Source: Bacillota bacterium (lineage in GTDB: Bacteria > Bacillota > Limnochordia > Darwinibacteriales > Darwinibacteriaceae). From it: 36,514 bases of DNA. Within the stretch, counting starts at the first letter, position 1. Each line of letters opens with the position of its first letter. Where the stretch lies: positions 1 to 36,514 of the forward strand of contig JAAYMS010000157.1 of assembly GCA_012521295.1 (NCBI GenBank). Reading direction: 5' to 3'. Below are positions 378 to 35,504 of the stretch, piece after piece. The notes below the pieces were generated by a model that saw nothing but the letters and a program-made list of their open reading frames with translations, ran no database searches and was not told where the DNA came from. Position numbers and translations under genes: made by a program.

Positions 378-381
378 ACTC

Positions 382-973: not shown

Positions 974-994
974 GTAAAAGAAAGGGGGAGCTCA

Positions 995-7468: not shown

Positions 7469-7474
7469 GCCTAA

Positions 7475-7483
7475 CCTCCCCTT
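7475..7483 (-). promoter_or_regulatory. Ribosome binding site fixing the porin start
   Basis: On the minus strand AAGGGGAGG is followed after 6 nt by ATG at 7468-7466. The signal peptide starts at that ATG with basic residues MRINR, which decides against the upstream ATG at 7501. Confidence 0.85.
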
Positions 7484-7501
7484 GTTTAATGGTTTAAACA
7501 A
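7482..7501 (-). promoter_or_regulatory. Palindromic operator candidate at the porin transcription start
   Basis: An 8-bp perfect inverted repeat, TTGTTTAA (7482-7489) and TTAAACAA (7494-7501), has a 4-bp centre. It overlaps the expected transcription start of the minus-strand gene. It looks like a LacI-type repressor site, but the cognate regulator is not identified. Confidence 0.5.
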
Positions 7502-13843: not shown

Positions 13844-16800
13844 ATGTACTTCACAGTCGAAAAAGCTGATCGATATATCGTTGATCTGCGGCCGTATATC
13901 TACGAAGACAAGGCTAAGATAGAAAGCTTTAAGCACTGGCCCGAGAACATTCAGGGCGCACATACGCCCGAGTTTGATGACAGTCAGTGGGAAGATTTCA
14001 AGGTCGGCGGCGCCTGGGGCGGCCGTGACCAGATTCATTGGTTTAGAACGACCGTGACCATTCCGGAGGAATGGCGTGATGCTAAGGTTGCTTTGTATCT
14101 GGCAGTTGGCGCCGGTGAGACTGGCGGCCTTAGGGGAGCAGAGTCGCTGGCATACATCAACGGCCTGCCGGCCCAGGGGCTAGACGTAAATCACGCAGAA
14201 ATTCTGCTCCTGCCCGAATGGATGGAAGCCGGTGAGTTCCATCTAGCAATTAAAGCTTTCAGCGGCTTACAGAATGAGACTAGATGGTTCTATAAGGCAG
14301 AACTGGTGAAGATTAACGAAGCGGCGGAGGATTTCTACTTCCGTGCCGCAACCGTTCTAGATACCATCCGGATTCTGCCAGAAAGTGACTACGTCCGCAC
14401 CTCCCTCTTGAACCTCTTGAACAGCGCCATTAACACAACTGACTTCCGCCGCCCGCGTTCGCCTGAGTTTTATGCATCAATTGCAAAGGCGAATGAGGAG
14501 CTCAAACAAGGGCTGCGGGAGCTCAAAGATGAGTCTGGTAAGCAGCCGGTTATTACCGCTGTAGGCCATTCTCATATTGACTTGGCTTGGTGGTGGCAGA
14601 TCAAACATACCCGGGAAAAGGGAAGCCGCACGTTCTCTACTGTGAACCATCTGATGGAGCAGTATCCTGAGTATCATTTTCTGGCCAGCCAACCCCAGCT
14701 GTATGAGTTCATCAAGCAGGACTATCCCGAGATCTTCGAGCGGATAAAGCAGCGTGTGAAAGAAGGCAAGTGGGAAGTTACCGGCGGTATGTGGGTTGAG
14801 CCCGACTGCAACGTTCCGTCAGGCGAATCGTTGGTCCGCCAGTTCTTGATGGGCCAGAAGTTCATGGAGGAAGAATTCGGTCTGCGGTCTACCGTTCTCT
14901 GGCTGCCTGACGTTTTTGGATATTCTTGGGCAATGCCTCAGATTATCAAGAAGAGCGGCCACAAGTATTTCATGACCACCAAGATCAGCTGGAGCCAGTA
15001 TAACCGGCCGGCCTATGACACCTTTATGTGGCGGGGCATCGATGGTACTGAAGTCTTGACTCACTTCATTACTACGACTGACTCTCCTAAGCCGCGGTTC
15101 TACACGTACAATGGTATGCTGAACCCTGCTAGTGCTGTCCGCAGCTGGGAGCATTATCAGCAGAAGGATATCAACGATGAACTGCTCTTGGCGTACGGCT
15201 TTGGCGATGGAGGCGGCGGCCCCACCAAGGAAATGATTGAAACAGGCAAGAAGATGCAGGAAATCCCTGGCCTGCCTGAGATTCGCTTCGGCAAGGCTGA
15301 GCCGTTCTTTGCCCGCCTCGAAGAGAAAGTGAAAGACAATCCGAAGCTGCCTATAGTCGATGGTGAGCTCTATCTCGAGTATCATCGCGGCACATATACA
15401 TCTCAGGCTCGCACCAAACGGAACAACCGCCTGAGTGAAATCATGCTTCATGACGTGGAGCTGTTTAACGCTCTCGCCATGAATGAAGTACCGGGCCACG
15501 AGTACCCACAGGATGAAATCAACGAAAACTGGAAGACCGTGCTCCGCAACCAGTTCCATGATATCCTGCCCGGTTCATCTATCGCTGAGGTATATGAAGA
15601 CGCAGATGCGGAATATGCTCAAGTGCTTGGCTCTAGCTGGGAACATCTGCAGACAGCTCTCAACGCTCTAGCAAGCAGGGTCGTGATGGATGGCGAGAAA
15701 ATAGTTGTGTTCAACTCTCTATCTTGGAAGCGCAGCGGAACTGCTATTCTGCCTTGGAGCGATACGTTGGAGGGCAAGGTGTTTGTCGACGATGAAGGTA
15801 AGCAGCTTGAGGCACGCATTGTCGAAACCAGCTCTGGTAAGGTTGTGGAAATTGAAGTACCCAACATCCCAAGCTTTGGGTACAAAGCCTTCCGCATCCA
15901 GAATAAGGATGAAGTGGAGCAGATAGCCGAGCCCACATCTACCAAGACTGTGCGCTTGGATGGACGGACCATTGAGTCGCCATACTACCGCATTGTGCTG
16001 AACGAATCTGGGCAGATCACTTCACTGTTCGATAAAGAAGCTGATCGTGAGGTTCTCCCCAAAGGTATGGCAGCTAACGTGATTGAGGCCTTCGAAGATA
16101 AACCGATGTACTACGATGCCTGGGACATTGACATTTACTATAGAGAAAAGCCTTACTCTGTGCAGCATCCAGTGGAGTGGAATGTACTGGAAAACGGGCC
16201 CAGCCGTGTTGTAATCGCCTTTGAGTGGCCGTTCCTTCAGTCCACCATCAAGCAGAAAATGATCGTCTATGCCGATCGCCGGAGAATCGACTTCAAGACA
16301 GAAATCGATTGGAACGAACATCAAGTTCTGCTCAAAGCCGCATTCCCCGTGGATGTACGCAGTACAAAGGCCACCTACGAAATCCAGTTCGGTAACGTAG
16401 AACGTCCTACACACTGGAATACCAGCTGGGATTATGCTAAGTTCGAGACCTGCGCTCAGAAATGGGTGGACTTGTCGCAGCGTGACTATGGCGTCAGCCT
16501 TCTCAATGACTGCAAGTACGGGCATGACGTGAAAGATAACATCATGCGTATCACTCTGCTCAAGTCTGGTATTGAGCCGGATCCAAACGCAGATCACGGA
16601 CATCATGAGTTCACTTACAGTCTCCTGCCACACAGTGGTGACTGGTACGAGGCCAATACCACACAAGAGGCCTATGAGCTGAACTATCCTCTGCGGGCAG
16701 TTTACGCCGACAGTTCAGCTGGTTCTCTGCCTGAGGAGCACAGCTTCATTAAGGTCAAAGGTGAGGGCGTCATTTTGGAGACTGTGAAGAAGAGTGAAAA

Positions 16801-16996
16801 GGATTCGAGCCTGGTGCTGCGCTTCTACGAGTACGGCAACCGCAGTTCTACCGTGGAAGTCGAGCTGGCTGCAGATCTGTCTTCTGTCGAGGAATGCAAC
16901 CTCATGGAAGAAGAGTGCGAGGCTGTGCCTTTCACAGGACGGACATTTACCTTTGATATCGATCCCTACGAGATCAAGACGTTCAAGATTAGGTGA
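13844..16996 (+). CDS. GH38 family alpha-mannosidase, cytoplasmic
   Basis: A 1050-residue retaining, metal-dependent alpha-mannosidase. The GH38 N-terminal domain starts near residue 235 with AVGHSHIDLAWWW, whose His244 and Asp246 are the expected Zn ligands. The nucleophile is Asp356 in WLPDVFGYSWAMPQI, and NQFHDILPGSSI supplies the late family histidine. The remaining ~450 residues are the mid domain and the C-terminal beta domains. An N-terminal beta domain (1-200) is typical of the bacterial/long form. No signal peptide is present. ATG 13844 follows the previous stop by 4 bp, with AGAAAGGAA overlapping that gene's end. Likely role: stripping alpha-mannose from imported oligosaccharides or N-glycan fragments. 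No frameshift or missing catalytic residue is seen. Confidence 0.94.
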   Translation: MYFTVEKADRYIVDLRPYIYEDKAKIESFKHWPENIQGAHTPEFDDSQWEDFKVGGAWGGRDQIHWFRTTVTIPEEWRDAKVALYLAVGAGETGGLRGAESLAYINGLPAQGLDVNHAEILLLPEWMEAGEFHLAIKAFSGLQNETRWFYKAELVKINEAAEDFYFRAATVLDTIRILPESDYVRTSLLNLLNSAINTTDFRRPRSPEFYASIAKANEELKQGLRELKDESGKQPVITAVGHSHIDLAWWWQIKHTREKGSRTFSTVNHLMEQYPEYHFLASQPQLYEFIKQDYPEIFERIKQRVKEGKWEVTGGMWVEPDCNVPSGESLVRQFLMGQKFMEEEFGLRSTVLWLPDVFGYSWAMPQIIKKSGHKYFMTTKISWSQYNRPAYDTFMWRGIDGTEVLTHFITTTDSPKPRFYTYNGMLNPASAVRSWEHYQQKDINDELLLAYGFGDGGGGPTKEMIETGKKMQEIPGLPEIRFGKAEPFFARLEEKVKDNPKLPIVDGELYLEYHRGTYTSQARTKRNNRLSEIMLHDVELFNALAMNEVPGHEYPQDEINENWKTVLRNQFHDILPGSSIAEVYEDADAEYAQVLGSSWEHLQTALNALASRVVMDGEKIVVFNSLSWKRSGTAILPWSDTLEGKVFVDDEGKQLEARIVETSSGKVVEIEVPNIPSFGYKAFRIQNKDEVEQIAEPTSTKTVRLDGRTIESPYYRIVLNESGQITSLFDKEADREVLPKGMAANVIEAFEDKPMYYDAWDIDIYYREKPYSVQHPVEWNVLENGPSRVVIAFEWPFLQSTIKQKMIVYADRRRIDFKTEIDWNEHQVLLKAAFPVDVRSTKATYEIQFGNVERPTHWNTSWDYAKFETCAQKWVDLSQRDYGVSLLNDCKYGHDVKDNIMRITLLKSGIEPDPNADHGHHEFTYSLLPHSGDWYEANTTQEAYELNYPLRAVYADSSAGSLPEEHSFIKVKGEGVILETVKKSEKDSSLVLRFYEYGNRSSTVEVELAADLSSVEECNLMEEECEAVPFTGRTFTFDIDPYEIKTFKIR

Positions 16997-17126: not shown

Positions 17127-18266
17127 TTGTTGGCGACTAGAGAGACGGAATTTACTGATCGTAAGATGCTGTACAGACAAACCAAGGATTACATCCTAGA
17201 CAAGATTCAGCAGGGTATATACGGTCCGGGGGAGCTCATTCCCTCGGAACGCGAACTTGCTGAACAGCTAAACATCAGCAGATACACAGTACGCAGAGCA
17301 ATTCAAGAATTGGTGGCCGAAGGGATCCTACACCGCGTTCAGGGTAGTGGTACCTATGTGACCGAACCCACCAACAATGTGCAGCGGAGTGACACATTGG
17401 GGATTGTGATGCCTTTCTCAGATGCCGAGGTGGAAATGCTTCTCTTGAACGGCATGCAGAAAGCACTGCGTGACACCCGTTTTTCCATGACAATTCGTGG
17501 AACGGGCAACAGCGCTGTCCGCGAGTGGGATGAAGTGCAGCGTCTCAAAGAAGAAGGCGTCAGCGGCCTGATTATTATGCCTAGTGAGGAAGAAGATGGC
17601 GGCCGGAGCGCGGTGGCCCTGAAGAGAGAAGGCTTCCCCTTTGTGTTAATCGACCGCAAGGTCCCTGGCTGCGAGACTAACTGCGTCATGTCTGACAACA
17701 TCCAAGGTGGATACCTGAGTGCAAAGTATCTGTACGATCTGGGCCACCGGAAAATCGCATTCGTAAAGCATCGCAGTGACAATACCAGCAGTGCGAAGGA
17801 TCGTTTTCTTGGCTACCGTAAGGCATTCCAAGAAACAGGACTCGGTGACGGTACCCTCTTTGCCTTTGATTATCGTAATGGTGAGGAGGAACTCCAGCAG
17901 TTCCTCCTTTCTGGAGAATATACTGCTTTTATCGCTGTAAACGGCTATGTGGCGGTTGATATTATCAAGGCATGCCGAGCGACTAACTTGGTAATTCCAG
18001 ATGATCTGTCACTTATCAGTTTCGATGATCCCAGTATTCTGCATCATCTGGAGGTTTCGCTGACTACAGTCATTCAACACACTGAAATGATTGGTTATCG
18101 AGCGGTGCGCTTGCTTATCGAGGAGATCAGCAATCAAGAGAAATACGGCAGGGATTATATTAGGAGTTATACACAATGCTACTACCCTGTACGTTTGATC
18201 GAGCGTGAGTCGTGCCGCAGGCTGGATTCAACGGGAATGGAGGTGCAGCATGGGCAGAACCACTAA
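17127..18266 (+). CDS. AraR-type chimeric regulator: GntR winged helix plus LacI-type effector domain
   Basis: 379 residues. Residues about 14-80 form a GntR-type winged helix (IPSERELAEQLNISRYTVRR, then GILHRVQGSGTYV). Residues about 89-365 form a LacI/periplasmic-binding-protein fold (DTLGIVMPFSD, GVSGLIIMPSEEED, LGHRKIAFV, LSLISFDDPSILHHL, LTTVIQHTEMIGYRAV). The same domain combination occurs in Bacillus AraR, a sugar-responsive repressor. The start is TTG at 17127 (or the adjacent TTG 17130) after AAGAGGTGA. The gene overlaps the following binding-protein gene by 17 nt, so it is the first cistron of the transporter operon and probably controls it in response to an imported sugar. The effector cannot be read from sequence. 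Confidence 0.92.
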   Translation: MLATRETEFTDRKMLYRQTKDYILDKIQQGIYGPGELIPSERELAEQLNISRYTVRRAIQELVAEGILHRVQGSGTYVTEPTNNVQRSDTLGIVMPFSDAEVEMLLLNGMQKALRDTRFSMTIRGTGNSAVREWDEVQRLKEEGVSGLIIMPSEEEDGGRSAVALKREGFPFVLIDRKVPGCETNCVMSDNIQGGYLSAKYLYDLGHRKIAFVKHRSDNTSSAKDRFLGYRKAFQETGLGDGTLFAFDYRNGEEELQQFLLSGEYTAFIAVNGYVAVDIIKACRATNLVIPDDLSLISFDDPSILHHLEVSLTTVIQHTEMIGYRAVRLLIEEISNQEKYGRDYIRSYTQCYYPVRLIERESCRRLDSTGMEVQHGQNH

Positions 18267-21222
18267 AATACTACTTGGAACACTATTGCTGTTGATTTTG
18301 CCCTGGGTTGCTTCGGCTTATGCCGCTGATGACGTTAATTTCGCAGATGATATCGCTAGCTTTGAGGCAGTGATTGATTACGGGACTTATCTTGAATCCT
18401 ATCTTGCCCAGGGTGCTGGCCGCCCAAATCGCCAGGTCTACGTGTTTGGAGACCGGTATTCTTCGACCAACATGGATGTGGAGTTGGTCTATTCTGAGGA
18501 GTACAACGGCTATGCTGTATACACGGGCGAGTGGGGCTACATTGAATGGGATGTTTACGTATCAGAACCAGGCCTGTACAACATAGAGCTCGCTTATTAC
18601 CCTGTTGAGGGTAGAGGCACTGCTATTGAGAGATCAATCGAAATAAACGGCGAGCCTCCATTTGAAGGGGCGAGCTATCTTTCTTTCTCTCGGGTTTGGG
18701 GTAGTGCAGAAGATATCCGCATGGATAACCAAGGTAATGAACTGCGTCCTGCTCAAAAGGAGTATCCGATGTGGCGGACCGCAGTTTTGTCTGATTCGAT
18801 GGGCAGCTATGCTGAGCCCTATCTGTTTTATTTCAACGAGGGAAGAAATACTATCCGTTTGGTTTCTCGCAGGGAACCGATGCTCATCCATCACCTACGT
18901 CTTTTCCAGGTGGAGATGCCCCCAACCTACGCGGAGCTTGTAGAACAGTACAAGCAGCGGGGTTATAAAGAAGCTCAAGGGGTCTTCATTAAGCTGCAGG
19001 AACGGGATTCTACTTACCGATCCGAATCTACTTTGGCACCTACGTTTGACCATGGTGACCCGACTTTGGAACCATATGATCCAGTTTTGATGCGCCTCAA
19101 CGCCATTGGCGGGGACAGCTGGAACCAGAGTGGGCAGTGGGTGCGCTGGGACTTTGAGGTACCCCAGTCTGGCCTTTACAAGATCGGCATCAAAGCTAAG
19201 CAGAATCTCTACCGCGGTTCTTTCAGTAACCGCCGTATCTACATTGACGACAAGGTCCTCTTTGAAGAGATGTCTGCGGTGCGTTTCCCGTACTCGTCTG
19301 TTTATGACATGTACGTTCTAGGTGGAGATGAAGACCCATACCTAGTCTACCTAGAAGAAGGCTCCCACAGCATCACCATGGAAGTCGTTTTGGGCGACAT
19401 GGTCGATGTGATCCGGACTGTCGAGCAAAGCGTGTATGATCTTAACTCGATTTACCGTCAGATTGTGATGATTACATCGCCGACGCCGGACCCAATGCGG
19501 ACTTACGAATTACCTAAGCGCATTCCTGGGCTCTTGGACAACATGCTCGTTCAGGCCGACATTGTAGAAGAGGTTGCCGACGCTCTAGAAGCATATACGG
19601 GTCAGAAGGGCGGAGCCACTGTTGTACTCAGAGACCTTTCGCGTCAGCTCCGCACGTTGGTCCAAGATCCCGACTCGATTCCACGGCGTCTGTCGGAGTT
19701 TCGAGACAATCTCGGTTCGTTGGGGACTTGGCTTTTAGACGTGCGCAAACAGCCTTTGGTTGTTGACTACTTGGTGGTCGCTTCACCTGAACAGGAAATG
19801 CCCAATGCATCAGCTTCTTTCGGTCAGCGGATGGGTCATGAAGTAAGAGCACTTGCATCCTCTTATACTCACGACTACACAAAGGTGGGCGACGTTTACG
19901 AAGGTGACGCCGAACCACTAACCGTTTGGATCGGCTGGGGCCGTGACCAAGCGCAGATATTGAAACGGCTGATTGAAAATGACTTTACACCAAAGACCGG
20001 AATTCCGGTAAACCTAGAACTGGTCAGCATGGGAGTACTCCTGCCGGCAACGCTGGCAGGAAGAGGCCCTGACGTGGCAATGGGTGTAAGTACTGCCCAA
20101 CCCATGAACTTTGCATTCCGTGGTGGGGTAGTTGACCTGAGTACAATGCCTGGCTTTGACGAAGTGAAAGAGCGGTTTATGCACAGCGCAATCGTACCGT
20201 TCATGTTCCGAGACAGCGTATATGCTCTTCCAGACCAGCAATCGTTCTTGATGCTGTTCTATCGCGCTGACATTCTGAAAGAGCTGGGGCTTGAAATCCC
20301 TCAAACCTGGGACGACGTGCTGGATATCATTCCTGTACTGCAGAAGCGCAATATGGACTTCGGCTTGCCGTTCTCGGTGCCAGCAAAAGCCATGAGTTCC
20401 TCCATCGGTGACGTCAGCTCGACCATGGGAAGTCTGTCGTCCAGTGGTGGGGTGCTGAACCTCTTAATGTTCATGTACCAGAAGGATCAGGAGCTGTTTA
20501 TTGAAGACGGTATTGCTACCAACCTTGATCATGAGGCAGCTGTAGAAGCCTTTACGCTCTGGACCGAGCTGTACGAACTGTACAAACTGCCGCTCGATTA
20601 CAACGCATCTAACCGTTTCCGGATGGGCGATATGCCTCTGGTTATTGCAAGTTACGGCTTATACAACGAGCTGCAGGTATTCGCACCTGAACTGCGGGGC
20701 AAATGGGGCTTCACATTGGTGCCTGGTACTCTCAAAGAAGATGGTACCATCGACCGTTCTGCACCAGCAGCTGTGGGCCAGACCGGCAGCATGATCATGG
20801 CAGCCTCGGACAAGGTTGAAGAGGGCTGGGAGTTCCTCAAATGGTGGACCAGTACTGAAACTCAGATTGAGTTTGGACGCCAGATTGAAAGTACGCTTGG
20901 CGTTGCTGGTCGCTATGCAACTGCTAATGTAGAGGCACTGGCTGGCCTACCATGGTCGGTAGAAGAGTATCAGAAGCTGATGGCCCAGTGGCAATGGGTG
21001 CGCGGTGTTCCTGAAGTACCAGGTGGCTATATGATCGGACGCTACCTAGACAACGCTTTCAGACAGGTTGTTTACAACAACAAACCCGCACGGGATATTC
21101 TGGTCGACTATAATCGGTTGATCAACGAGGAAATCCAACGCAAGCGGGAAGAGTTCAGCTTACCCACTGAATTCGACGATCTACCTGAAGAATACCGCAA
21201 GCTCTACTGGGTTGAGCAGTGA
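18250..21222 (+). CDS. Multidomain extracellular solute-binding protein with two N-terminal CBM-like modules
   Basis: 990 residues, more than twice the usual size of a sugar-binding protein. Residues 1-25 are a cleavable signal peptide without a lipobox Cys. Two beta-sandwich, CBM6/35-like modules follow (about 60-220 and 255-380), marked by WGYIEWDVYVSEPGLYNIEL and QWVRWDFEVPQSGLYKIGI. A helical linker covers 420-510. The C-terminal ~430 residues are a family 1 binding-protein domain: LLPATLAGRGPDVAMG, PFMFRDSVYALPDQQSFLML and GLEIPQTWDDVLDIIPVLQ. ATG 18250 is preceded by GGAGGTG; a frame opening at 18205 would lack a signal peptide. I infer that the extra modules hold a polymer or long oligosaccharide for the two following permeases. 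Confidence 0.87.
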   Translation: MGRTTKILLGTLLLLILPWVASAYAADDVNFADDIASFEAVIDYGTYLESYLAQGAGRPNRQVYVFGDRYSSTNMDVELVYSEEYNGYAVYTGEWGYIEWDVYVSEPGLYNIELAYYPVEGRGTAIERSIEINGEPPFEGASYLSFSRVWGSAEDIRMDNQGNELRPAQKEYPMWRTAVLSDSMGSYAEPYLFYFNEGRNTIRLVSRREPMLIHHLRLFQVEMPPTYAELVEQYKQRGYKEAQGVFIKLQERDSTYRSESTLAPTFDHGDPTLEPYDPVLMRLNAIGGDSWNQSGQWVRWDFEVPQSGLYKIGIKAKQNLYRGSFSNRRIYIDDKVLFEEMSAVRFPYSSVYDMYVLGGDEDPYLVYLEEGSHSITMEVVLGDMVDVIRTVEQSVYDLNSIYRQIVMITSPTPDPMRTYELPKRIPGLLDNMLVQADIVEEVADALEAYTGQKGGATVVLRDLSRQLRTLVQDPDSIPRRLSEFRDNLGSLGTWLLDVRKQPLVVDYLVVASPEQEMPNASASFGQRMGHEVRALASSYTHDYTKVGDVYEGDAEPLTVWIGWGRDQAQILKRLIENDFTPKTGIPVNLELVSMGVLLPATLAGRGPDVAMGVSTAQPMNFAFRGGVVDLSTMPGFDEVKERFMHSAIVPFMFRDSVYALPDQQSFLMLFYRADILKELGLEIPQTWDDVLDIIPVLQKRNMDFGLPFSVPAKAMSSSIGDVSSTMGSLSSSGGVLNLLMFMYQKDQELFIEDGIATNLDHEAAVEAFTLWTELYELYKLPLDYNASNRFRMGDMPLVIASYGLYNELQVFAPELRGKWGFTLVPGTLKEDGTIDRSAPAAVGQTGSMIMAASDKVEEGWEFLKWWTSTETQIEFGRQIESTLGVAGRYATANVEALAGLPWSVEEYQKLMAQWQWVRGVPEVPGGYMIGRYLDNAFRQVVYNNKPARDILVDYNRLINEEIQRKREEFSLPTEFDDLPEEYRKLYWVEQ

Positions 21223-21233
21223 GGGGGGATATA

Positions 21234-22187
21234 ATGGCGTCTATGCCTGAAAGACAAGTGAGCACTCAGGCCGTTTATCGGCCTGAGAGCAAGCTTGGTC
21301 AATTATGGAAGCGCATCAAGCAAAACAAAGTTTCATACTTCTTCGTTGCACCGTACGGAATTCTGTTTTTCATGTTTACCGTTTTGCCTGTTGCGGTGGC
21401 GATTTACTTGAGTTTCACCCACTACAACATGCTGCAGCCTCCCCGGTGGGTGGGCTGGGAAAACTACCTGCGGCTCCTGCTCGCAGACGATATTTTCCTG
21501 ATAGCGGTCAAGAATACCTTTGTGTTTGCAGTGGTAACGGGGCCTTTGAGCTACCTGGCCAGCTTCGTGTTTGCTTGGTTGATCAATGAGTTGAAGCCAA
21601 GAATTAGGGCTTTCTTGACTCTGCTTCTATATGCTCCGTCTATCTCCGGAAGCTTGTACTTGATCTGGACCATCATGTTTAGTGGAGACTCTTATGGTTT
21701 CATTAACTCCCGTCTCCTTTACCTGGGTATCGTTAAGGAGCCTATACAGTTCCTGACAGACCCAAAGTGGATGATGTCCGTTGTGATCATCGTAGTATTG
21801 TGGATGAGTTTGGGAACCAGTTTCTTAGCTTTCATTGCAGGCCTTCAGGGTATCGACTCGAGCTTGTATGAAGCAGCCGCCGTGGACGGAATCAGAAACC
21901 GCTGGCAGGAACTGTTCTTCATCACGCTGCCTCAAATGAGGGGCTATCTGATGTTCGGTGCCATTATGGCCATTACTAGTTCCTTTGCTGCTGCGGAGCA
22001 GATCATCCCACTGGTCGGTTTCCCCAGTACGGATTACGCAGGACACACAATCGTGGCACACTTGATCGACTATGGTAATGTCCGGTTTGAAATGGGTATG
22101 GCTTCGGCTATTGCGGTTATCTTGTTCTTTACCATGGTCATATCACAGAGGCTTGTGCAGCGCCTGCTTGATAAGATCGGGACCTGA
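21234..22187 (+). CDS. Sugar ABC transporter permease (UgpA/LacF-type), pair 1
   Basis: 317 residues with an N-terminal cytoplasmic stretch and about six transmembrane helices, the first at PYGILFFMFTVLPVAVAIYL. The EAA loop is LYEAAAVDGIRNRWQELFFI followed by TLPQMRG. It belongs to the binding-protein-dependent carbohydrate permeases (MalF/UgpA side). ATG 21234 follows GAGGGGGG by 5-6 nt; the GTG at 21219 overlaps the previous stop and is less well placed. It pairs with the next gene. No ATPase is encoded nearby, so a shared MsmX/UgpC-like ATPase elsewhere is assumed. Confidence 0.93.
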   Translation: MASMPERQVSTQAVYRPESKLGQLWKRIKQNKVSYFFVAPYGILFFMFTVLPVAVAIYLSFTHYNMLQPPRWVGWENYLRLLLADDIFLIAVKNTFVFAVVTGPLSYLASFVFAWLINELKPRIRAFLTLLLYAPSISGSLYLIWTIMFSGDSYGFINSRLLYLGIVKEPIQFLTDPKWMMSVVIIVVLWMSLGTSFLAFIAGLQGIDSSLYEAAAVDGIRNRWQELFFITLPQMRGYLMFGAIMAITSSFAAAEQIIPLVGFPSTDYAGHTIVAHLIDYGNVRFEMGMASAIAVILFFTMVISQRLVQRLLDKIGT

Positions 22188-22199
22188 GGAGGGACAGTC

Positions 22200-23072
22200 G
22201 TGATCAGACGTTTAAGACAAAAATTCTGGACCACCAAACCAACCCGTTCCTTCGGGGGAGACTTGGCCGTTCTCCTCTTCATCGCGGCTGCGGCAGCGTT
22301 TTCGGCTCTGCCTCTGGTATATGCTATTTCTAACGCGTTCAAACCCCTAAACGAGCTGTTTCTCTGGCCGCCGCAGTTCTTCGTGCGGAACCCAACCATG
22401 GCAAACTTCTATGACCTCTTGGTTCTGATGTCCAGTTCGTGGGTTCCATTTTCCCGCTACCTGGTGAACACACTTGTTATCACATTGGGAGGTACAGTTG
22501 GCCACGTTGTTTTGGCATCGCTAGCAGCTTATGCCCTCGCCAAACATGACTTTCCCGGCAGCAAGTGGATGTTTTCAGTAGTCGTTTTGTCGCTGATGTT
22601 CGCAAAGCAGGTTACGGCTATTCCGAACTACCTAATTACTTCAGTTCTCGGTCTAGTTGACACTCATTGGGCAATTATCTTACCTGCTTGGGCCATGAGC
22701 TTGGGGTTGTTTTTGATGAAACAGTTCATCGAAGCCATGATCCCCGATGCGCTGCTCGAATCGGCACGTATCGAGGGTGCCAGCGAATGGACAATTTTCT
22801 GGAAGATCGTTATGCCTAACGTTCGGCCGGGTTGGCTGACCTTGATTATTCTTTCGTTCCAGGCATTGTGGGGCGAAACGGGCGGACAGTTCATTTATAG
22901 TGAGCAGTTGAAGACGCTCCCTTACGCCCTGAGTCAGATTGTTTCCGGAGGTATCGCCCGTGCGGGTGTAGCCGCAGCAGTGGGTGTGATCATGATGATA
23001 CTTCCAATTACAGTATTCGTCATTAACCAAAGCAAAGTCATCGAAACAATGGGTGCTTCCGGTATCAAGTAA
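22200..23072 (+). CDS. Carbohydrate ABC transporter permease (UgpE/MalG-type), pair 1
   Basis: 290 residues, about six transmembrane helices, and an EAA loop ESARIEGASEWTIFWKIVMP followed by NVRPG. The segment YLVNTLVITLGGTVGHVVLA and the fragment YALAKHDFPG are typical of the MalG/UgpE partner permease. GTG 22200 is preceded by GAGGAGGGA and starts 12 bp after the previous stop. It forms the heterodimeric channel with the preceding permease. Confidence 0.93.
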   Translation: MIRRLRQKFWTTKPTRSFGGDLAVLLFIAAAAAFSALPLVYAISNAFKPLNELFLWPPQFFVRNPTMANFYDLLVLMSSSWVPFSRYLVNTLVITLGGTVGHVVLASLAAYALAKHDFPGSKWMFSVVVLSLMFAKQVTAIPNYLITSVLGLVDTHWAIILPAWAMSLGLFLMKQFIEAMIPDALLESARIEGASEWTIFWKIVMPNVRPGWLTLIILSFQALWGETGGQFIYSEQLKTLPYALSQIVSGGIARAGVAAAVGVIMMILPITVFVINQSKVIETMGASGIK

Positions 23073-23095
23073 TCGATGGTGATGGGGGGTTTATT

Positions 23096-25219
23096 GTGAA
23101 ACAGATTCGGTTGAAAATCCTATGGACTGCTGTACTGGTACTGATTGTCCTGGCACAGCCTGTGGCTTTTGCTCAGGACAGCTATACCTACACCGAAGAT
23201 AGGGAAGCCGCCCCTGGCCCAGCGGTATACCGGAATGTGCTCGAGGTGTTCGGTGAGGATCTAGGAATCGGTGCCCTGAAAGAACCGCAGGACTTGTTCG
23301 TCCTCCAGGATAACCTGGTCTACGTGGCAGACACTGGCAATAATCGCATTGTTGTTCTTGACAAATACCTGCGGTTGGTTCGCACCATTTCTACCTTTGA
23401 TAACAACGGTGTAGAAGATCGTTTTGCTTCACCACAGGGCCTATTCGTTGCCGACGATGGCACACTCTACGTGGCGGACTACGGGAAGAATCGGGTAGTA
23501 GTGTTAGACAGCAGCGATCAGCTGATCCGGACCATCGAGAATCCTACAGACCAGGAACTCATTCCGGCGAACTTCCGTTTTCGCCCGAAAAAAGTGGTCG
23601 CAGATCGGGTCGGACGGGTATATGTAATTGCTGAAGGTGTCCTTGAGGGTTTGATGGAGTTTGACGAACAGGGTGTTTTCAGTGGATACATTGGTGCACC
23701 GCCTGTAAGGCCTAGTTTGTGGGAATACTTCTGGCGCCAGATTATGACTGACGCGCAGAAGGAAAGGTCTGTCTTATTTATTCCTACTGAATACAGTAAC
23801 ACTGATATTGACGAAAAAGGTTTTATCTACACAACTGTAGCCGGAGGAGGCACCGAGCGCTCTGCGATCATCCGCCGACTTAACCCAGCGGGTGAAGATG
23901 TGCTGCGCCGCAATGGATTCTTCGATCCGATGGGCGATGTCGATTATATTCTCGCCGGTGAGATTCGGGGCGCTACCATCACAGGCCGCTCCAGCCTTCA
24001 GGATATTGTTGTCTGGAAAAACGGTATCTACTCGGTTGTAGATCTGACTAGAGGCCGTGTCTTCACTTATGATGACAACGGCAACATGCTCTTTGCTTTT
24101 GGGGCTCCTGTCTTTGAGCGGAATGCCTTCCGCACGCCGGCAGCGTTGGAGTACTTGGACGACAAACTGCTTGTCTTGGATCGCCGTCTAAACATGATCA
24201 CGATGCTGGAGCCAACCGATTATGCTCTCTCTATTTTTAGAGCGATTGAGCTGTATCAACAAGGTGATTACGATGGCTCAGCCGACGTGTGGCGTGAGGT
24301 CCTCAAGCAGAATCCCAACCTAGACCTGGCTTACAGCGGTATCGGCCGTGCGCTTCTGCGCCAAGGTGAGTATCGCGGGGCCATGGATTATTACAAGCTG
24401 GGTAGTGATCGTGAAGGATATGCGCAGGCTTTGGCTCTGTACCGTCGTGAATGGATCAATGCCAATTTCTCGTATATCATGACCGGTATTGTAGCAGCAG
24501 CGATCGCCCTTTACGTGATCGGACTGGTACGGCGCCGCCGCCGTGCTCGCATGGGTTATGTAGGTTTGGCTTACACAGTCAGCGAGAACAAGTTCGTCGC
24601 ATACCTGCAGAAACTCAAATATGCGCTGCACGTCATTGTCCGTCCTGGTGATGGTTTCTGGGATCTGAAACATGAAAAACGTGGTGACTTGTGGTCTGCC
24701 ACAACCATTCTGGCGCTGGTTATGCTCACGTTTATTCTGGCGCGGCAGTACACCGGCTTCCCCTTCAACATGGCGGATCCCCGTGAAATGAACATCTACA
24801 TGGAAATCGCCAGCGTGCTAGTACCGTTCTTCTTGTGGTGCGGAGTAAACCTTGCCCTCACCAGCATTATGGACGGAAAGGGTTCGTTTAGAGAAATCTA
24901 TATCACAACAGCATACGCACTTGTGCCAATCATACTCATTCATGCACCACTAATCCTGGTCAGCCGGGTAATCACACTCGACGAGGGTGCGTTCTATTAC
25001 GTGTTCCAGGTGTTCGCAGTGATTTGGGCAGTATTCTTGCTGCTCGTCGGCATGAGTGTCATTCATGACTACCGTTTTGGAAAGAACATCTTTACAAGCG
25101 GGTTAACTGTCGTTGGCATCGGCGTAGTAATCTTCTTGGCACTGCTGTTTGTGAACGTCTTAGCCCAACTTCTTGGTTTCGTCGATACGATTTGGACCGA
25201 AGTAACATTTAGGATATAA
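23096..25219 (+). CDS. NHL-propeller/TPR/Yip1-domain membrane protein in the transporter operon
   Basis: 707 residues. Residues 1-26 are a cleavable signal peptide. Residues about 60-370 form an NHL-type beta-propeller with repeats such as LVYVADTGNNRIVVLDKYLR and LYVADYGKNRVVVLDSSDQ. Residues about 378-435 look like TPR helices (AIELYQQGDYDGSADVWREV, GRALLRQGEYRGAMDYY). A transmembrane helix at 459-478 ends in a very basic RRRRRARMG stretch, followed by a cytoplasmic segment. Residues about 530-695 hold five more hydrophobic segments of Yip1 type. So the propeller and TPR face the periplasm and the Yip1 part lies in the inner membrane. The gene sits between permease pair 1 and the DUF5696-like gene. 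It could be a scaffold or accessory of the transporters; no function is assigned. Confidence 0.8.
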   Translation: MKQIRLKILWTAVLVLIVLAQPVAFAQDSYTYTEDREAAPGPAVYRNVLEVFGEDLGIGALKEPQDLFVLQDNLVYVADTGNNRIVVLDKYLRLVRTISTFDNNGVEDRFASPQGLFVADDGTLYVADYGKNRVVVLDSSDQLIRTIENPTDQELIPANFRFRPKKVVADRVGRVYVIAEGVLEGLMEFDEQGVFSGYIGAPPVRPSLWEYFWRQIMTDAQKERSVLFIPTEYSNTDIDEKGFIYTTVAGGGTERSAIIRRLNPAGEDVLRRNGFFDPMGDVDYILAGEIRGATITGRSSLQDIVVWKNGIYSVVDLTRGRVFTYDDNGNMLFAFGAPVFERNAFRTPAALEYLDDKLLVLDRRLNMITMLEPTDYALSIFRAIELYQQGDYDGSADVWREVLKQNPNLDLAYSGIGRALLRQGEYRGAMDYYKLGSDREGYAQALALYRREWINANFSYIMTGIVAAAIALYVIGLVRRRRRARMGYVGLAYTVSENKFVAYLQKLKYALHVIVRPGDGFWDLKHEKRGDLWSATTILALVMLTFILARQYTGFPFNMADPREMNIYMEIASVLVPFFLWCGVNLALTSIMDGKGSFREIYITTAYALVPIILIHAPLILVSRVITLDEGAFYYVFQVFAVIWAVFLLLVGMSVIHDYRFGKNIFTSGLTVVGIGVVIFLALLFVNVLAQLLGFVDTIWTEVTFRI

Positions 25220-25236
25220 GGGGGTTAGCACGTACG

Positions 25237-27996
25237 ATGAAAAGGCGAAGCTTAATCAGCCTGATCTGCTTGCTACTATTCATATGTCTTCAGTCTTCAG
25301 TCTTGGCAGCTAACCTCCAGGGTTACAGCGTTGTGCAGGAAAATGAATACCTGCGCCTCTACCTCAATGAGGCAACGGCTGAGTTTGCTGTACAAGACAA
25401 GCAGTCGGAGGAAATCTGGTTCGGCGGTCTGCCTGAAGTACGTCAGGAGACTGTAAAGCGGGGGGCAGCCCGAGATGCAATGCGGGGTATGCTGACCCTC
25501 AACTACTACACTCCATCGCGGGAAGCGCGGTCGCTGAACTCTTATGTCGATAGTGTGGTCAACGAAGAGTTCACCATCACTTATATCGATCAAGGAGTAC
25601 GATTTGACTTCATCCTCGGTAAACAGTGGGGTGAGGATGCGTACTATCCAGTTTTTATCAAGAAGGATAAGTTTGAGGCCCTGCTGGAGAAAGTTCAAGA
25701 CAAGTTTGATCGCCAGATCGTTGAAGAAGCATACACCCTGATCGTAGCTGAGGAGCGCGACTACGATCCCTATGCACAGGTGTTTGTGTACGGAATGGAC
25801 CTGCCCGTTGTCATGGGTAATTACGAGATAGTGGTTCTTGCAGGTAAAATCCTCGACCGGTATATCGGGACTAACAACACACCCGTAGAACGCTTGAAGA
25901 ATTACGTTGAGCTCCTTGCCGATACAATTGTGAATCGCCGGTCGGACTACGATCGCCGTGCTTTGATCACGGCTGCAGATATGGCATTCCTTAAGAGTGG
26001 CGAACCCATGTACGTACTGCTGGATGGCACTTACCCTGCCTACTACAAGCCTGAGTTGGCCCGGATTTTCTCGGACCTCGGTTATACTCCAGCAGACGTG
26101 ACAGCAGATCATTCGCAGACCAGCATCGATCCACCCAAACCCAACCCACAGATCTTCAAAGTACCTGTGGAGATCAAACTGGATGGGCCTGATCTGGTGG
26201 TAAATGTCTTAACCAGCGAAATGGAGTATCCAGTTAATGTGGAAACCCAAGATGGCGAACTGGCTACCTATCTGCCCACTTCCATTGATGTGCTGCCTCT
26301 CTTTGGAGCAGCTGACCGTAGTGCTGAAGGCTACATCTTTGTACCGGACCGCAGCGGCGGGCTGATGTATCTCAACAACCAGAAGAAGATCAATCTGCCA
26401 TCGTACTTCGGCGCGGTTTATGGCCCTGACCGTTCGACTGCGCCGCAGCAGGAGAACATTTCTCCGGGGCCGCTTGTCCGGATGCCAGTCTTTGGCCTTA
26501 AGGATGGAGATCGTGCTTGGTTCGCAATCATTGAGGATGGTCAGGCGCTGGCCAACATCTCGGCAGAACTGGCTGGCAAGACCGACTCATTTAACAAGGC
26601 CTATGCGCGCTTTAATCTGACACCTCGCACCACAATTGTCTTGTATGGCGTTGAGACCAGCCAAGACGACCGGATGGTGGATGCATACGCCGTAGAACCA
26701 TACAAGGGCAATATCACTATCCGTTACCAATTCTTGCTGGGTGATCAGGCTGATTACGCAGGTATGGCCAATAAGTACCGTGAGTATTTAGTAGAGCGGC
26801 TCGGGCTTAAAGAGATCGATCCAAACAGCCCAGTCCCTCTCATGGTTGAGCTGATCGGCGGATTCCACGACAAGGAGCCTGTGATGGGTGCGCCGCGGGA
26901 AGTAATTCGGCCCATGACGACATACTCTCAGGCCGTTGAGATTGCACAAGATCTCAAATCGCAAGGTGTTGACAGCCTCAGGCTGCGGTACCTGGGATGG
27001 TCTCGAGGTGGGATCGAACACTATTTCCCCAACAAGATCAGTCTAGAATCAGCTCTAGGTAAAAAGAATGAGCTGCTCAATCTGTTCAATCTCGACGATG
27101 TTGAAGTTTACCTCGATGTGAACTTCATGACCGTCATGCGGGATACAATGTTTGATAGTTTTAGAGCTGGAAAACACGCAGCCCGGTTCCTCAACCGTTC
27201 TGCTGCTAAGCTGTTCAAGTTTAACCAGGCCACCTTCCAGCAGATCAGTACTGAGTACGATTACATCCTTTCACCGCGGTACTTGAGCTGGGTGGTGGAT
27301 GGATTCTTAAAGGATCTTGCGGACTATCCAGGAGCAAACGTTTCGCTGCGAAACATGGGAAGGGTGGTTTACTCTGATTTCCAAGATCGGGCTGACCGGG
27401 CAGTAACTCGCCAGCGTGCTCTCGTATACATCAAGGAGCAGTTCGAACGCTTCGTCTCCGAAGATGTTGATCTGTTAATTGCAGGAGGTAACGACTCGTC
27501 CTTCCCGTATGCCAAACAGATTGTGGAAGCACCAACCGAAGGCAGTCTGATGCTCATTATCGATGAGTCGGTACCGTTCTACCAAATGGTACTGCATGGC
27601 CTCGTTGATTTCTCTGGTCAACCTTTCAATCAAGGTGGAGTCACCAGGGAGAAGCTCCTAAAGACCTTGGAAACCGGGGAAATCCCTTACTTCCGTTGGA
27701 GCTATGCAGACTCTTCAGCCGTTAAGGGCAGCAACTTCGACTATCTCTTGGCTACAACCTACTCCGATACCGTAGATGAGGCCTTAGCCTTATTCGAAGA
27801 AGCCAAGCCTGTATTGGAGAAGGTACGCGGCCAGGCGATTGTAAATCACACAAAGCTGTTGGATGGCGTTTACCGCACCAGTTACGCAAATGGTGTGGAA
27901 GTGATCGTAAACTACAATGACACCGGCATATTTGCCGCAGGACGATATGTACCGGGTCACGGATACGCAGTGTATGAAAGGAGGGCACAGGATTGA
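25237..27996 (+). CDS. DUF5696-like secreted protein (beta domains plus putative TIM barrel)
   Basis: 919 residues with a cleavable signal peptide (1-24, cut near VLAANL). The opening VVQENEYLRLYLNEATAEFAV and IWFGG is what I associate with the DUF5696 family. The N-terminal half is beta-rich. From about residue 505 a barrel-like series appears: PLMVELIGGF, QAVEIAQDLKSQGVDSLRLR, DDVEVYLDVNFMTVM, NVSLRNMGRVVYSDF, VDLLIAGGNDSSFPYAKQIV and GSLMLIIDESVPFYQMVLHG. Possible catalytic acids include the Asp of LIIDESVPF, but I cannot place a nucleophile. AAGGGGG lies 12 nt before ATG 25237, a long spacing. The stop overlaps the next start as TTGA. The position between permease pairs suggests a role in glycan processing outside the cytoplasm; this is inference. 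Confidence 0.75.
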   Translation: MKRRSLISLICLLLFICLQSSVLAANLQGYSVVQENEYLRLYLNEATAEFAVQDKQSEEIWFGGLPEVRQETVKRGAARDAMRGMLTLNYYTPSREARSLNSYVDSVVNEEFTITYIDQGVRFDFILGKQWGEDAYYPVFIKKDKFEALLEKVQDKFDRQIVEEAYTLIVAEERDYDPYAQVFVYGMDLPVVMGNYEIVVLAGKILDRYIGTNNTPVERLKNYVELLADTIVNRRSDYDRRALITAADMAFLKSGEPMYVLLDGTYPAYYKPELARIFSDLGYTPADVTADHSQTSIDPPKPNPQIFKVPVEIKLDGPDLVVNVLTSEMEYPVNVETQDGELATYLPTSIDVLPLFGAADRSAEGYIFVPDRSGGLMYLNNQKKINLPSYFGAVYGPDRSTAPQQENISPGPLVRMPVFGLKDGDRAWFAIIEDGQALANISAELAGKTDSFNKAYARFNLTPRTTIVLYGVETSQDDRMVDAYAVEPYKGNITIRYQFLLGDQADYAGMANKYREYLVERLGLKEIDPNSPVPLMVELIGGFHDKEPVMGAPREVIRPMTTYSQAVEIAQDLKSQGVDSLRLRYLGWSRGGIEHYFPNKISLESALGKKNELLNLFNLDDVEVYLDVNFMTVMRDTMFDSFRAGKHAARFLNRSAAKLFKFNQATFQQISTEYDYILSPRYLSWVVDGFLKDLADYPGANVSLRNMGRVVYSDFQDRADRAVTRQRALVYIKEQFERFVSEDVDLLIAGGNDSSFPYAKQIVEAPTEGSLMLIIDESVPFYQMVLHGLVDFSGQPFNQGGVTREKLLKTLETGEIPYFRWSYADSSAVKGSNFDYLLATTYSDTVDEALALFEEAKPVLEKVRGQAIVNHTKLLDGVYRTSYANGVEVIVNYNDTGIFAAGRYVPGHGYAVYERRAQD

Positions 27997-28889
27997 AGAG
28001 GAAGCGACTAACCCTAACTCAGCAGAGAAGCTTGACTGGCTATCTGTTTACACTGCCTTTCATCATTGGGTTCATCCTGTTCTTTCTCGCTCCGTTTGTC
28101 CAGTCGGTTGTTTTCAGCCTGAATCATCTCCGGATCGTGACAGGCGGGTATGAACTTATCTACAACAACTGGGAAAACTACAAGCATGCGCTCTTTGTCG
28201 ACACAAACTTCCTGCCCACCTTTACGCAGACACTGCTGAACATGCTGTTGGACGTACCAGCCATCGTCTTTTTCAGCTTCTTTGCAGCACTGCTGCTAAA
28301 CCAGAAGTTCAAGGGCCGGCTCCTGGCCCGCTCCATCTTCTTTCTGCCTGTGATTCTCAGTTCGGGAGTAATTGCTGGGCTCGAAGCTAGTGACTACATG
28401 GCCAACATGATGAGGGAAACAGCTAATGTAGCTACTAGTTTCTTATCTGGGCCAGCTCTGACAGAGTTTCTCATGCAGATGAAGATCCCAAGAGAGCTCT
28501 TGATGTACGTTGTCAATGTGGTGGACCGTATTCCGGAGATCATCCGGGCCTCTGGAATTCAAATTCTCATTTTCCTGGCAGGCCTGCAGTCCATCTCCCC
28601 ATCGCTGTACGAAGCTGCTCGGGTCGAAGGAGCCTCTGGATGGCAGACGTTCTGGTTGATTACGATTCCGGTCTTGAGCCCCACCATTTTGGCAAATGTG
28701 GTTTACTCTATCATTGACTCTTTCTTGGCACCCACCAACGATCTGGTCAACTACATTCGAAGCACAGCCTTTGGGGGAGCCGGTTTCGGAATTGGAACAG
28801 CAATGGGAGTAATGTACTTTGCTGCTGTGGCAGTAATTCTAGCCATAGTAGTAGGTATAATTTCCCGCTACGTGGTTTATCAAGATTAA
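27993..28889 (+). CDS. Sugar ABC transporter permease (LplB/UgpA-type), pair 2, with enlarged loop
   Basis: 298 residues starting at TTG 27993, with AAGGAGGG 8-9 nt upstream. It overlaps the DUF5696-like stop by 4 nt. About six transmembrane helices and an EAA loop, LYEAARVEGASGWQTFWLIT followed by IPVLSP. Compared with the pair 1 permease it has an extra stretch of about 55 residues between GVIAGLEASD and IQILIFLAGLQ (residues about 125-185), probably on the periplasmic side. This extra loop may contact the binding protein or the Yip1/DUF5696 neighbours (inference). Confidence 0.92.
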   Translation: MKRKRLTLTQQRSLTGYLFTLPFIIGFILFFLAPFVQSVVFSLNHLRIVTGGYELIYNNWENYKHALFVDTNFLPTFTQTLLNMLLDVPAIVFFSFFAALLLNQKFKGRLLARSIFFLPVILSSGVIAGLEASDYMANMMRETANVATSFLSGPALTEFLMQMKIPRELLMYVVNVVDRIPEIIRASGIQILIFLAGLQSISPSLYEAARVEGASGWQTFWLITIPVLSPTILANVVYSIIDSFLAPTNDLVNYIRSTAFGGAGFGIGTAMGVMYFAAVAVILAIVVGIISRYVVYQD

Positions 28890-28909
28890 TGGAGGGGGGC
28901 AAGTAGCAT

Positions 28910-29842
28910 ATGGCAATTATTGCACGGGAACGGCGCCTTGCTCTTAAGCATAAACTAGGCAACTTTCTGTTCAGCGTTTTTCGCACGGTCCTAATCCTAG
29001 GAATTGCTTACATCATCTTGTATCCTGTTTTGAGCAAGCTCTCCTCGTCGTTCATGTCTCGGCGTGACCTAATCGACCAAACGGTAAAGTATATCCCGAA
29101 GCGGCCGACGCTAGACAACTATCGGTTCGCGATGGAAGTCATGAATTTCGGTAAGACTTTCACCAACTCGCTGGTTCTTTCGGTGGTAGTCGCAACGCTC
29201 CAGCTTGTATCAAGCACGGTAGTAGGGTACGGTCTGGCACGGTTCCGTTTCAAGGGGAGAAATCTCGTTATGGCAGCGGCAATTTTCACTCTGATAGTGC
29301 CGCCCCAGATGATGATGGTTCCCTTGTACCTCAACTGGCGGTTCTTTAACATGTACGGCCTAATTCCGGGTCAAGGCTTCAATCTCTTGAACAGTCCATG
29401 GCCGTTCATTTTGACGGCCCTGACTGGAACTGGTCTGCGGAACGGGTTATTTATTCTTGTGATGCGGCAGTTCTTTGCTGGAATGCCCTCAAGCCTTGAA
29501 GAAGCGGCCTACGTGGATGGAGCTGGGCCTTTGAGGACCTTCGTTCAGATCATGCTGCCTAGTGCAGTCCCATCAATGGTTGTTGTCTTCTTGTTCGGCT
29601 TTGTCTGGCAGTGGAATGACTCGTTCTTAACCACGCTGTATCTAGACAGCAACTTCCTGCCTGTAGCACTGAGCAACATCACTACAAGATTGGCGCAGTA
29701 CTTCGGAAAAACTGACCCGCAGTACTTCTCGCTGATCACCAATGCTGGCAGCATGCTCATGATTGCGCCTCTCTTGGCCATGTATGCTTTACTGCAGCGC
29801 TACTTCGTGGAGAGTATTGAGCGTACTGGTCTGGTTGGCTAA
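28910..29842 (+). CDS. Carbohydrate ABC transporter permease (UgpE/MalG-type), pair 2
   Basis: 310 residues, about six transmembrane helices, and an EAA loop LEEAAYVDGAGPLRTFVQIM followed by LPSAVPS. The segments TNSLVLSVVVATLQLVSSTV and GYGLARFRFKG are typical of MalG-type permeases. GGAGGGGGG lies about 10 nt upstream of ATG 28910. It is the partner of the preceding permease and the last gene of the tightly packed operon that starts with the AraR-type regulator. Confidence 0.93.
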   Translation: MAIIARERRLALKHKLGNFLFSVFRTVLILGIAYIILYPVLSKLSSSFMSRRDLIDQTVKYIPKRPTLDNYRFAMEVMNFGKTFTNSLVLSVVVATLQLVSSTVVGYGLARFRFKGRNLVMAAAIFTLIVPPQMMMVPLYLNWRFFNMYGLIPGQGFNLLNSPWPFILTALTGTGLRNGLFILVMRQFFAGMPSSLEEAAYVDGAGPLRTFVQIMLPSAVPSMVVVFLFGFVWQWNDSFLTTLYLDSNFLPVALSNITTRLAQYFGKTDPQYFSLITNAGSMLMIAPLLAMYALLQRYFVESIERTGLVG

Positions 29843-30113: not shown

Positions 30114-31388
30114 GTGAAAAGGTTCCAAGTATTAGCGCTTTTACTCGTAGTTGGCTTGATGTTTACCTCGGTTGCAAGTGCACAAAACATTGATTTTGGT
30201 GGCAAGACTGTCACCTTCGTCGGTGGCGTGGATAAGCTTGAGGACCAGCGCAAGAGCGGTCTTGTAGCTCAAGCTGAGGAAATGTTCAACGTTAAGATTG
30301 AAGTTCTCACCGTTCCAGCAGATCAGGCAGTTGAAACCATGGTTACCCGCCTCATCAGTGGTGACTCCGAATACGACGTGTGGGCCATTGACAATGGTGA
30401 CACATTCTATCCACTGCTTGCTTCTGACGCTCTGCTGCCTCTGAACGACGTTCTGGGTGATGAATACTACGCAATGCCTCGTAAGTATGCTAACCCTGCC
30501 GTAGACGCTTTCTCCATTGGCGACAAAGTCTACGTACTTGGCAGCTTCGAAATCCTGCCAAACGGTGCAACCACCTGGTTCGTATTTAACAAAGACATCA
30601 TTGAAGCTGAAGGCCTAGCTGATCCATACGAGCTGTACTTCAACGGCGAATGGAACTGGGATAACTTCCGTGAAATGGCTATCGCTGCTACCAAGGACCT
30701 TGATGGCGACGGCGAGCCAGATCAATACGGTATGGAATATCTCTACACCTGGGCTTACCTCGTAGCATCCAACGGTGTAAACTTCTTCGTGCCTAATGAA
30801 GAAGGCAGACTGATTTACAACTGGAACGACGAAGGTGTTCTCCAGGCTATCGAGTTTGGCCGTCAACTCAACTACATCGACAAGGTTAACACCACTTCTG
30901 GTGGATTCGCAGAAGGCCGGACCCTCTTTGCATTCCAAGCAACCTGGCAGCTCGATGGTCTTCTGACCGCAGACGTCAACTGGGGTCTCCTGCCATTCCC
31001 GAAGGGTCCATCTGCTAAGAACCACTCCATGTACACAGGCTTCATCGGCGGCCTTGGTCTGCCTATGAACTCTGCTCAGCCAAAAGAAATGGCAGCTCTG
31101 CTTGACTTCCTGTTTGCTCCTGCAAACTGGGAAACCTATGCTGAAGACCGCTATGCAGAACTGGTCAACACCTACTGCCCAGATATTCAGTCTGCTCGGA
31201 TCTTCACCGAGTTCCTGCCTATCTATGGCTCTGAAGGCGAAATCCTGAACTACCCACTCACTGCTGAAGAAGTATGGAACGCCTACTCTTCCGCAATGGC
31301 TGGCGAACGCACTCCTGCAGAGGCTATGAACTCTGTAGTGCAAGTAGGTCAATCCTATGTCGACGACCTCTTGGGCTTCACAAAATAA
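30114..31388 (+). CDS. Extracellular sugar-binding protein of ABC transporter, periplasmic
   Basis: 424 residues of normal binding-protein size. Residues 1-23 are a signal peptide ending SVASA-Q without a lipobox, so the product should be soluble in a periplasm. Family 1 features follow: GKTVTFVGGVDKLEDQRKSG, SGDSEYDVWAIDNGDTFYPL, GDKVYVLGSFEILPNGATTW, YFNGEWNWDNFREMAIAATK and DLDGDGEPDQYGMEY. GTG 30114 follows AAGGGAGG by 8 nt. Asn is written almost always AAC, and the codon choice looks more selective than in its neighbours, which suggests high expression. It may be the true partner of permease pair 2, with the downstream stem-loop protecting its mRNA. Confidence 0.92.
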   Translation: MKRFQVLALLLVVGLMFTSVASAQNIDFGGKTVTFVGGVDKLEDQRKSGLVAQAEEMFNVKIEVLTVPADQAVETMVTRLISGDSEYDVWAIDNGDTFYPLLASDALLPLNDVLGDEYYAMPRKYANPAVDAFSIGDKVYVLGSFEILPNGATTWFVFNKDIIEAEGLADPYELYFNGEWNWDNFREMAIAATKDLDGDGEPDQYGMEYLYTWAYLVASNGVNFFVPNEEGRLIYNWNDEGVLQAIEFGRQLNYIDKVNTTSGGFAEGRTLFAFQATWQLDGLLTADVNWGLLPFPKGPSAKNHSMYTGFIGGLGLPMNSAQPKEMAALLDFLFAPANWETYAEDRYAELVNTYCPDIQSARIFTEFLPIYGSEGEILNYPLTAEEVWNAYSSAMAGERTPAEAMNSVVQVGQSYVDDLLGFTK

Positions 31389-35477: not shown

Positions 35478-35504
35478 TGCGTTCGGGTTCTTGAGGGAGA
35501 AGCT

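Follow-up and report, generated by a model that had tools for sequence, protein, structure and literature searches.

The SusCD systems of Bacteroidota couple a surface glycan-binding protein to a transporter, and many paralogous copies lie beside different hydrolases. Among ABC importers, the cello-oligosaccharide importer Athe_0595-0598 of Anaerocellum bescii is driven by MsmK, a documented shared ATPase (PMC12838199). The Yip1-family proteins of eukaryotes are multi-span membrane proteins linked to trafficking (PMC6682643), and the GH129-type enzymes ZgGH129 and NagBb have a catalytic Asp in common (D486/D435) while differing in the second residue (PMC5698469). The gene cassette analyzed here brings a Yip1 domain and a protein with a GH129-like fold together with two pairs of ABC permeases.

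The window, by which we mean the whole stretch of 36,514 nucleotides from a Bacillota bacterium (contig JAAYMS010000157.1), carries eight tightly packed plus-strand open reading frames between positions 17127 and 29842 (Table 1). The first-pass annotation had described eight genes in one direction, with two permease pairs flanking the NHL-TPR-Yip1 and DUF5696 genes and no ATPase. ORF calls and Pfam agree with it in coordinates, strand and spacing, with intergenic distances in gene order of -17 (with ATG 18250), -4, +12, +23, +17, -4 and +20; BPD_transp_1 is found four times, the families agree, and no ATPase lies in 17127-29842. Absent from its gene list was the second solute-binding protein (SBP2), which begins 271 bp downstream of permease 4 on the same strand and thereby makes this a cassette of nine genes. 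The ORF of the giant SBP opens at 18205; the ATG at 18250 is the likelier start. Promoter and terminator scans came out close to the shuffled expectation.

Table 1. Genes of the cassette and its glycoside hydrolase neighbors (positions in the window)
Feature	Position	Strand	Basis and remarks
GH38 alpha-mannosidase, neighbor	13844..16996	+	GH38 N and C domains (Pfam)
GntR-LacI type regulator	17127..18266	+	Pfam GntR 80 bits, Peripla_BP_3 93 bits; GntR HTH and sugar-binding domain
Giant SBP, ~990 aa	18250..21222	+	SBP_bac_1 at ORF residues 584-887
Permease 1, MalF-like	21219..22187	+	BPD_transp_1; EAA loop EAAAVDG
Permease 2, MalG-like	22200..23072	+	BPD_transp_1; EAA loop ESARIEG
NHL propeller, TPR, membrane anchor and Yip1 domain, secreted	23096..25219	+	Pfam Yip1 58 bits, NHL, TPR
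DUF5696 protein, signal peptide, GH129/GH101-like fold	25237..27996	+	PF18952 579 bits
Permease 3, MalF-like	27993..28889	+	BPD_transp_1; EAA loop EAARVEGA
Permease 4, MalG-like	28910..29842	+	BPD_transp_1; EAA loop EAAYVDGA
SBP2, second solute-binding protein	30114..31388	+	SBP_bac_1 67 bits; 3' of permease 4 in many relatives
GH3 enzyme with PA14 domain, neighbor	31481..34129	+	Pfam
Two GH29 alpha-L-fucosidases, neighbors; second cut by window end	34119..36512	+	Pfam

By Pfam, the surroundings of the cassette consist of GH29, GH18 and GH38 upstream and GH3 and two GH29 downstream. The GH38 gene is likely to belong to the same catabolic cluster, and the GH29, GH18, GH38 and GH3 neighbors together suggest that the substrate of the window copy is N-glycan-like and contains fucose and mannose. 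A CBM9-like protein (10196-11233) is followed by an 869-aa transglutaminase-core protein (11230-13839) that lies between the genes for GH18 and GH38, and on the minus strand at 4745-7501 a 918-aa protein has a mannanase galactose-binding-like domain as its sole Pfam match. Positions 365-4683 hold a separate complete importer of another type, with an HTH-cupin regulator, an ATPase with a TOBE domain, two permeases and an SBP. This ATPase (995-2044) sits with its own permeases and SBP by Pfam, and it looks like a part of that importer, distinct from the cassette.

In a survey of 300 genomes across the phylum, the window genome included, each family was searched separately. DUF5696 was over the cutoff in 26/300 genomes and the propeller-Yip1 protein in 27/300, with 26 common to both (Fisher p about 1e-36), and the two genes were adjacent wherever both partners were listed. 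The giant SBP (~1000 aa), sought separately, was present in all 26 DUF5696 genomes; three further genomes gave a strong match near a contig end, and in five others the match was only to an ordinary-sized SBP. Co-occurrence in 26/26 genomes rules out chance adjacency, and the gene neighborhood check proposed in the first-pass annotation, on Yip1 and DUF5696 genes together with these permeases, thus came out near-perfect, with the order fixed in the loci. Weak DUF5696 matches in other genomes, one of them GH13 neopullulanase-like by sequence and one branching-enzyme-like, were treated as distant barrel relatives and not as members. Two related proteins of ~660 aa (L107:1302-3290 and L108:1153-3144) also show weak similarity to the DUF5696 barrel.

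Gene order was compared in 86 loci, 80 from the genome_contigs set and six from the window genome. The 80 were found with a DUF5696 query and are therefore no measure of DUF5696 frequency, which the 300-genome survey gauges without this bias. Where the locus left room, Yip1 stood before DUF5696 in 81/81, permease 3 after DUF5696 in 78/78 and permease 4 after permease 3 in 76/76. The loci span Paenibacillaceae, Perspicuibacillus, Lachnospiraceae, Oscillospiraceae, Halanaerobiales and uncultured Bacillota, and the closest relatives by DUF5696 are Bacillota MAGs. Copy numbers of Yip1 and DUF5696 are one-to-one, with 9 and 9 in Paenibacillus sp. LHD-38 and 2 and 2 in three others. The co-inheritance of Yip1, DUF5696 and the giant SBP and their fixed order indicate one functional system, and it is well supported that Yip1, DUF5696 and the importers belong to a single system of glycan uptake; co-inheritance speaks for functional linkage, not contact. 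Mantel tests between the components were all high, which species descent alone could yield, and the own-genome paralogues were nearly equidistant and gave no signal.

The source genome assembly (2.3 Mb, 186 contigs, 94.8% complete) contains about seven cassette copies, most of them beside different glycoside hydrolases. Its seven Yip1 genes share their contigs with seven DUF5696 genes. There is one more DUF5696 match, a fragment with which contig 53 begins, and this may be the missing part of the copy that is truncated on contig 141. The hydrolase neighbors of five diverged cassettes are GH10; GH26 with CBM35; GH43 and GH2; GH43 and an arabinofuranosidase-like protein; and GH38, GH29 and GH3. 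Mean identity among these five was 65% for permease 1 and 64% for permease 2, 57% for the SBP domain of the giant SBP (51% for the whole protein), 50% for permease 4, 49% for permease 3, 44% for Yip1, 35% for DUF5696 and 31% for SBP2. Because the identities differ in this way and the hydrolase neighbors vary between copies, we suggest that the giant SBP and permeases 1-2 form a constant arm, whose ligand or partner would be common to the copies, and that SBP2, DUF5696 and permeases 3-4 form an arm adapted to the substrate. The first-pass annotation had treated both permease pairs alike, and here the data suggest a different picture, with one conserved and one variable arm. A recent duplication of one pair into the other was ruled out, as profiles separate pairs 1-2 and 3-4 in the loci. 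Two contigs, G000 contig 91 (L019/L105; 23410 bp) and G000 contig 128 (L020/L106; 23409 bp), can be aligned over their whole length with 81% DNA identity. Both carry a complete cassette and a GH26-CBM35 gene, and they represent either a diverged duplication or two co-binned populations. A large cassette expansion is seen in the 3.0-Mb genome of L034 (G306), with ~20 DUF5696 matches, some of them fragments, and ~10 giant-SBP matches.

Of the 65 loci with room, 51 had permeases 1-2 immediately before the propeller gene and three had them at another place in the cluster; in the other 11 they were missing from the stretch retrieved, so this arm can be encoded away from the other genes. In genomes with the arm apart, DUF5696 outnumbers the giant SBP by 8 to 4, 10 to 4 and about 11 to 6 (approximate counts that include contig fragments); in other genomes the two are equal (2 and 2). 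Such separate encoding and unequal numbers would fit two ordinary importers and two unrelated accessory proteins that are co-expressed for the same nutrient and share no machine. We find this quite improbable in view of the exceptionless co-occurrence at genome level, an order fixed across distant lineages and the one-to-one Yip1 and DUF5696 numbers. To our knowledge, ordinary CUT1 operons lack an obligate gene set of this kind, which also counts against mere co-expression.

A CUT1-type importer set, that is, an SBP_bac_1 protein and two BPD_transp_1 permeases with EAA loops, is present twice in the cassette, and the loop was recognized by eye in all four permeases. Each pair has a candidate binding protein, the giant SBP for permeases 1 and 2 and SBP2 for permeases 3 and 4. 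The giant SBP consists of a signal peptide, two N-terminal beta-rich regions, a helical stretch and the SBP_bac_1 domain; the best solved relative of this domain is Lin1841 (5ysb, E 3.5e-16), and the N-terminal half gave no family match in Pfam. The genome has one MalK/MsmX-type ATPase (OB_MalK), on contig 36 and away from any cassette. A dedicated linked ATPase was ruled out, as LSGGQ-type ATPases occur in few of the 80 loci and in none of them inside the cassette. Because sharing is documented for A. bescii MsmK (PMC12838199), it is likely by analogy that the single MalK/MsmX-type ATPase encoded elsewhere drives both permease pairs. The suggestion in the first-pass annotation of a shared MsmX/UgpC ATPase thus fits the gene content, with the sharing itself likely only. 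Next to the MsmX-like ATPase, a 501-aa protein on the minus strand (L104:334-1839) was outer-membrane-barrel-like by eye; the host may be diderm, in which case the outward parts of the cassette would be in a periplasm.

In the propeller-TPR-Yip1 protein, the Yip1 domain (PF04893) scored 58 bits against a cutoff of 28.6, the model reached a pLDDT of 86.4, and the propeller matches NHL structures. After the signal peptide there are six hydrophobic segments, one at 460-478 and five in the Yip1 part. A single gene encodes the propeller-TPR and Yip1 parts in the window lineage, and in many Paenibacillaceae and Lachnospiraceae they are divided between two neighboring genes (fused in 42 loci, split in 32), which supports the view that they work together. 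The signal peptide suggests that the propeller and TPRs face outside, anchored by the Yip1 domain. Such an architecture, with a large outward-facing domain attached to several membrane spans, would suit a receptor, and the Yip1 family is multi-span and trafficking-linked in eukaryotes (PMC6682643). Even so, it is very improbable that this protein and DUF5696 act as a glycan sensor or permease assembly factor outside the uptake path, since Pfam recognized no signaling domain in the propeller-TPR-Yip1 protein and the first gene of the window copy codes for a soluble regulator of the GntR-LacI type that has a sugar-binding domain itself.

The DUF5696 protein was modelled with a mean pLDDT of 91.8 from 58 aligned sequences. 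The best Foldseek matches in the PDB were ZgGH129 (5opq, E 2e-31) and NagBb (5wzn, E 5e-26), followed by GH101 and GH36, and the sequence profile independently matched ZgGH129 (1e-10) and NagBb (5e-5). A single-sequence search against structures gave nothing meaningful, hmmscan of the window protein to E 0.1 returned DUF5696 only and no Pfam GH129 (PF11308), and a PF11308 search of the 300 genomes gave no match, with controls equally blank, so that it carries no weight. DUF5696 probably descends from GH129/GH101-like alpha-glycosidases. The catalytic position could be mapped indirectly, through the modelled strands and a very weak alignment to a GH13-type enzyme (the profile alignments stop before beta4), and on this mapping position 705 after beta4 is R in 25/58 sequences and in the window (R705), position 706 is D in 27/58, T in 12 and N in 5 (window N706), and position 749 at the end of beta5 is D or E in 21/58 (window A749). 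Conserved in the family are G587-W588, D714, R725, N752, D776, P780-F781 and E812, with D714, D776 and E812 each >90% conserved over the 58 sequences and D714 or E812 lost in some own-genome paralogues.

The lack of conserved acids after beta4 and beta5 favors a glycan-binding role, and DUF5696 is probably a binder that has lost catalysis in at least many of its members. About half of the sequences keep an Asp at 706, and some members could therefore be enzymes. In a stronger version of this, DUF5696 would belong to a new GH129-related family as an active exo-glycosidase and trim oligosaccharides extracellularly ahead of their import, with Yip1 only as a tether and the rest an ordinary importer pair. 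The fold with its deep match to two active enzymes and the three highly conserved acids are in line with such an enzyme, as is the Asp at 706, and unusual machinery would be possible because the catalytic residues already differ between both solved GH129-type enzymes (PMC5698469). We regard it as unlikely, given the residues at 705, 706 and 749 of the window copy, the paralogues without D714 or E812 and the dedicated hydrolases of many kinds that are already encoded beside the cassettes.

On balance, we lean towards the cassette being a single functional system that captures oligosaccharides at the surface and imports them, in which the components have the following roles. In this model, whose physical complex, topology, loss of catalysis, arm roles, SBP-permease pairing and substrate we infer, permeases 1+2, paired with the giant SBP, and permeases 3+4, paired with SBP2, would form two heterodimeric ABC transporters; having no ATPase of their own, both would be powered by the single MalK/MsmX-type ATPase encoded elsewhere. 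The propeller-TPR-Yip1 protein would be a membrane-anchored platform whose outward propeller and TPRs hold the secreted DUF5696 near the permeases, and DUF5696, derived from a glycoside hydrolase, would bind and present glycan chains and not cut them, at least in the window copy. The giant SBP/permease 1-2 arm would stay constant, and the SBP2/DUF5696/permease 3-4 arm would be adapted to the substrate. Of the single envelope-spanning glycan machine proposed in the first-pass annotation, the functional linkage stands and the glycan link is strong through the differing hydrolase neighbors; a physical complex is a step of the model, and the topology as predicted involves a single membrane with its outer side.

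The cassette is carried by about 9% of the genomes sampled in the phylum (26/300), and in some the copy number is around ten or higher; Paenibacillus and gut Lachnospiraceae are among its hosts. The name DUF5696 was absent from the 5.39 million open papers searched (subscription papers and preprints were outside the scope), the open papers searched held nothing relevant on Yip1 with ABC transporters, solute-binding proteins, carbohydrates or polysaccharides, and Yip1 goes unmentioned in the regulon paper on C. bescii. The cassette is thus undescribed in the open papers searched, and an earlier description elsewhere is possible. If the model is true, it would give two orphan protein families a testable function, partly explain the uptake of hemicelluloses and other complex glycans by these bacteria and provide an annotation marker for polysaccharide gene clusters.

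Compared with known systems, the cassette resembles Athe_0595-0598 (PMC12838199) in its SBP_bac_1 protein, heterodimeric BPD_transp_1 permeases with EAA loops, lack of a linked ATPase and GH neighbors. It differs from CUT1 importers of this type in its two permease pairs, the obligate propeller-TPR-Yip1 and DUF5696 proteins and a binding protein of ~1000 aa with a long extra N-terminal half. The PF04893 multi-span membrane domain is shared with the Yip1 (YIPF) family, but here it occurs in a bacterial glycan setting, either in one protein with a secreted NHL propeller and TPRs or encoded next to such a protein. DUF5696 is like the GH129/GH101 enzymes (NagBb, ZgGH129/DagB and EngBF) in having a beta-sandwich, a TIM barrel and a C-terminal beta domain, but has only ~12-15% identity to them, lacks conserved acids after beta4 and beta5 on the indirect mapping and is always encoded with permeases. 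It is possible, and we propose it tentatively, that the cassette is a widespread and undescribed multi-subunit glycan uptake machine of Bacillota and a functional counterpart of SusCD, in which a Yip1-anchored propeller scaffold and a GH-derived binder would feed two ABC permeases, with one constant arm serving several substrate-specific arms and a single ATPase powering them all. No match to the TonB-dependent porin (SusC) or SusD lipoprotein families was found by Pfam among the window proteins scanned. The possible analogy to SusCD is functional, in a surface glycan binder joined to a transporter, multiple copies and varied hydrolase neighbors, whereas the transporter itself is built from ABC permeases in the cassette and is a TonB-dependent porin in SusCD.
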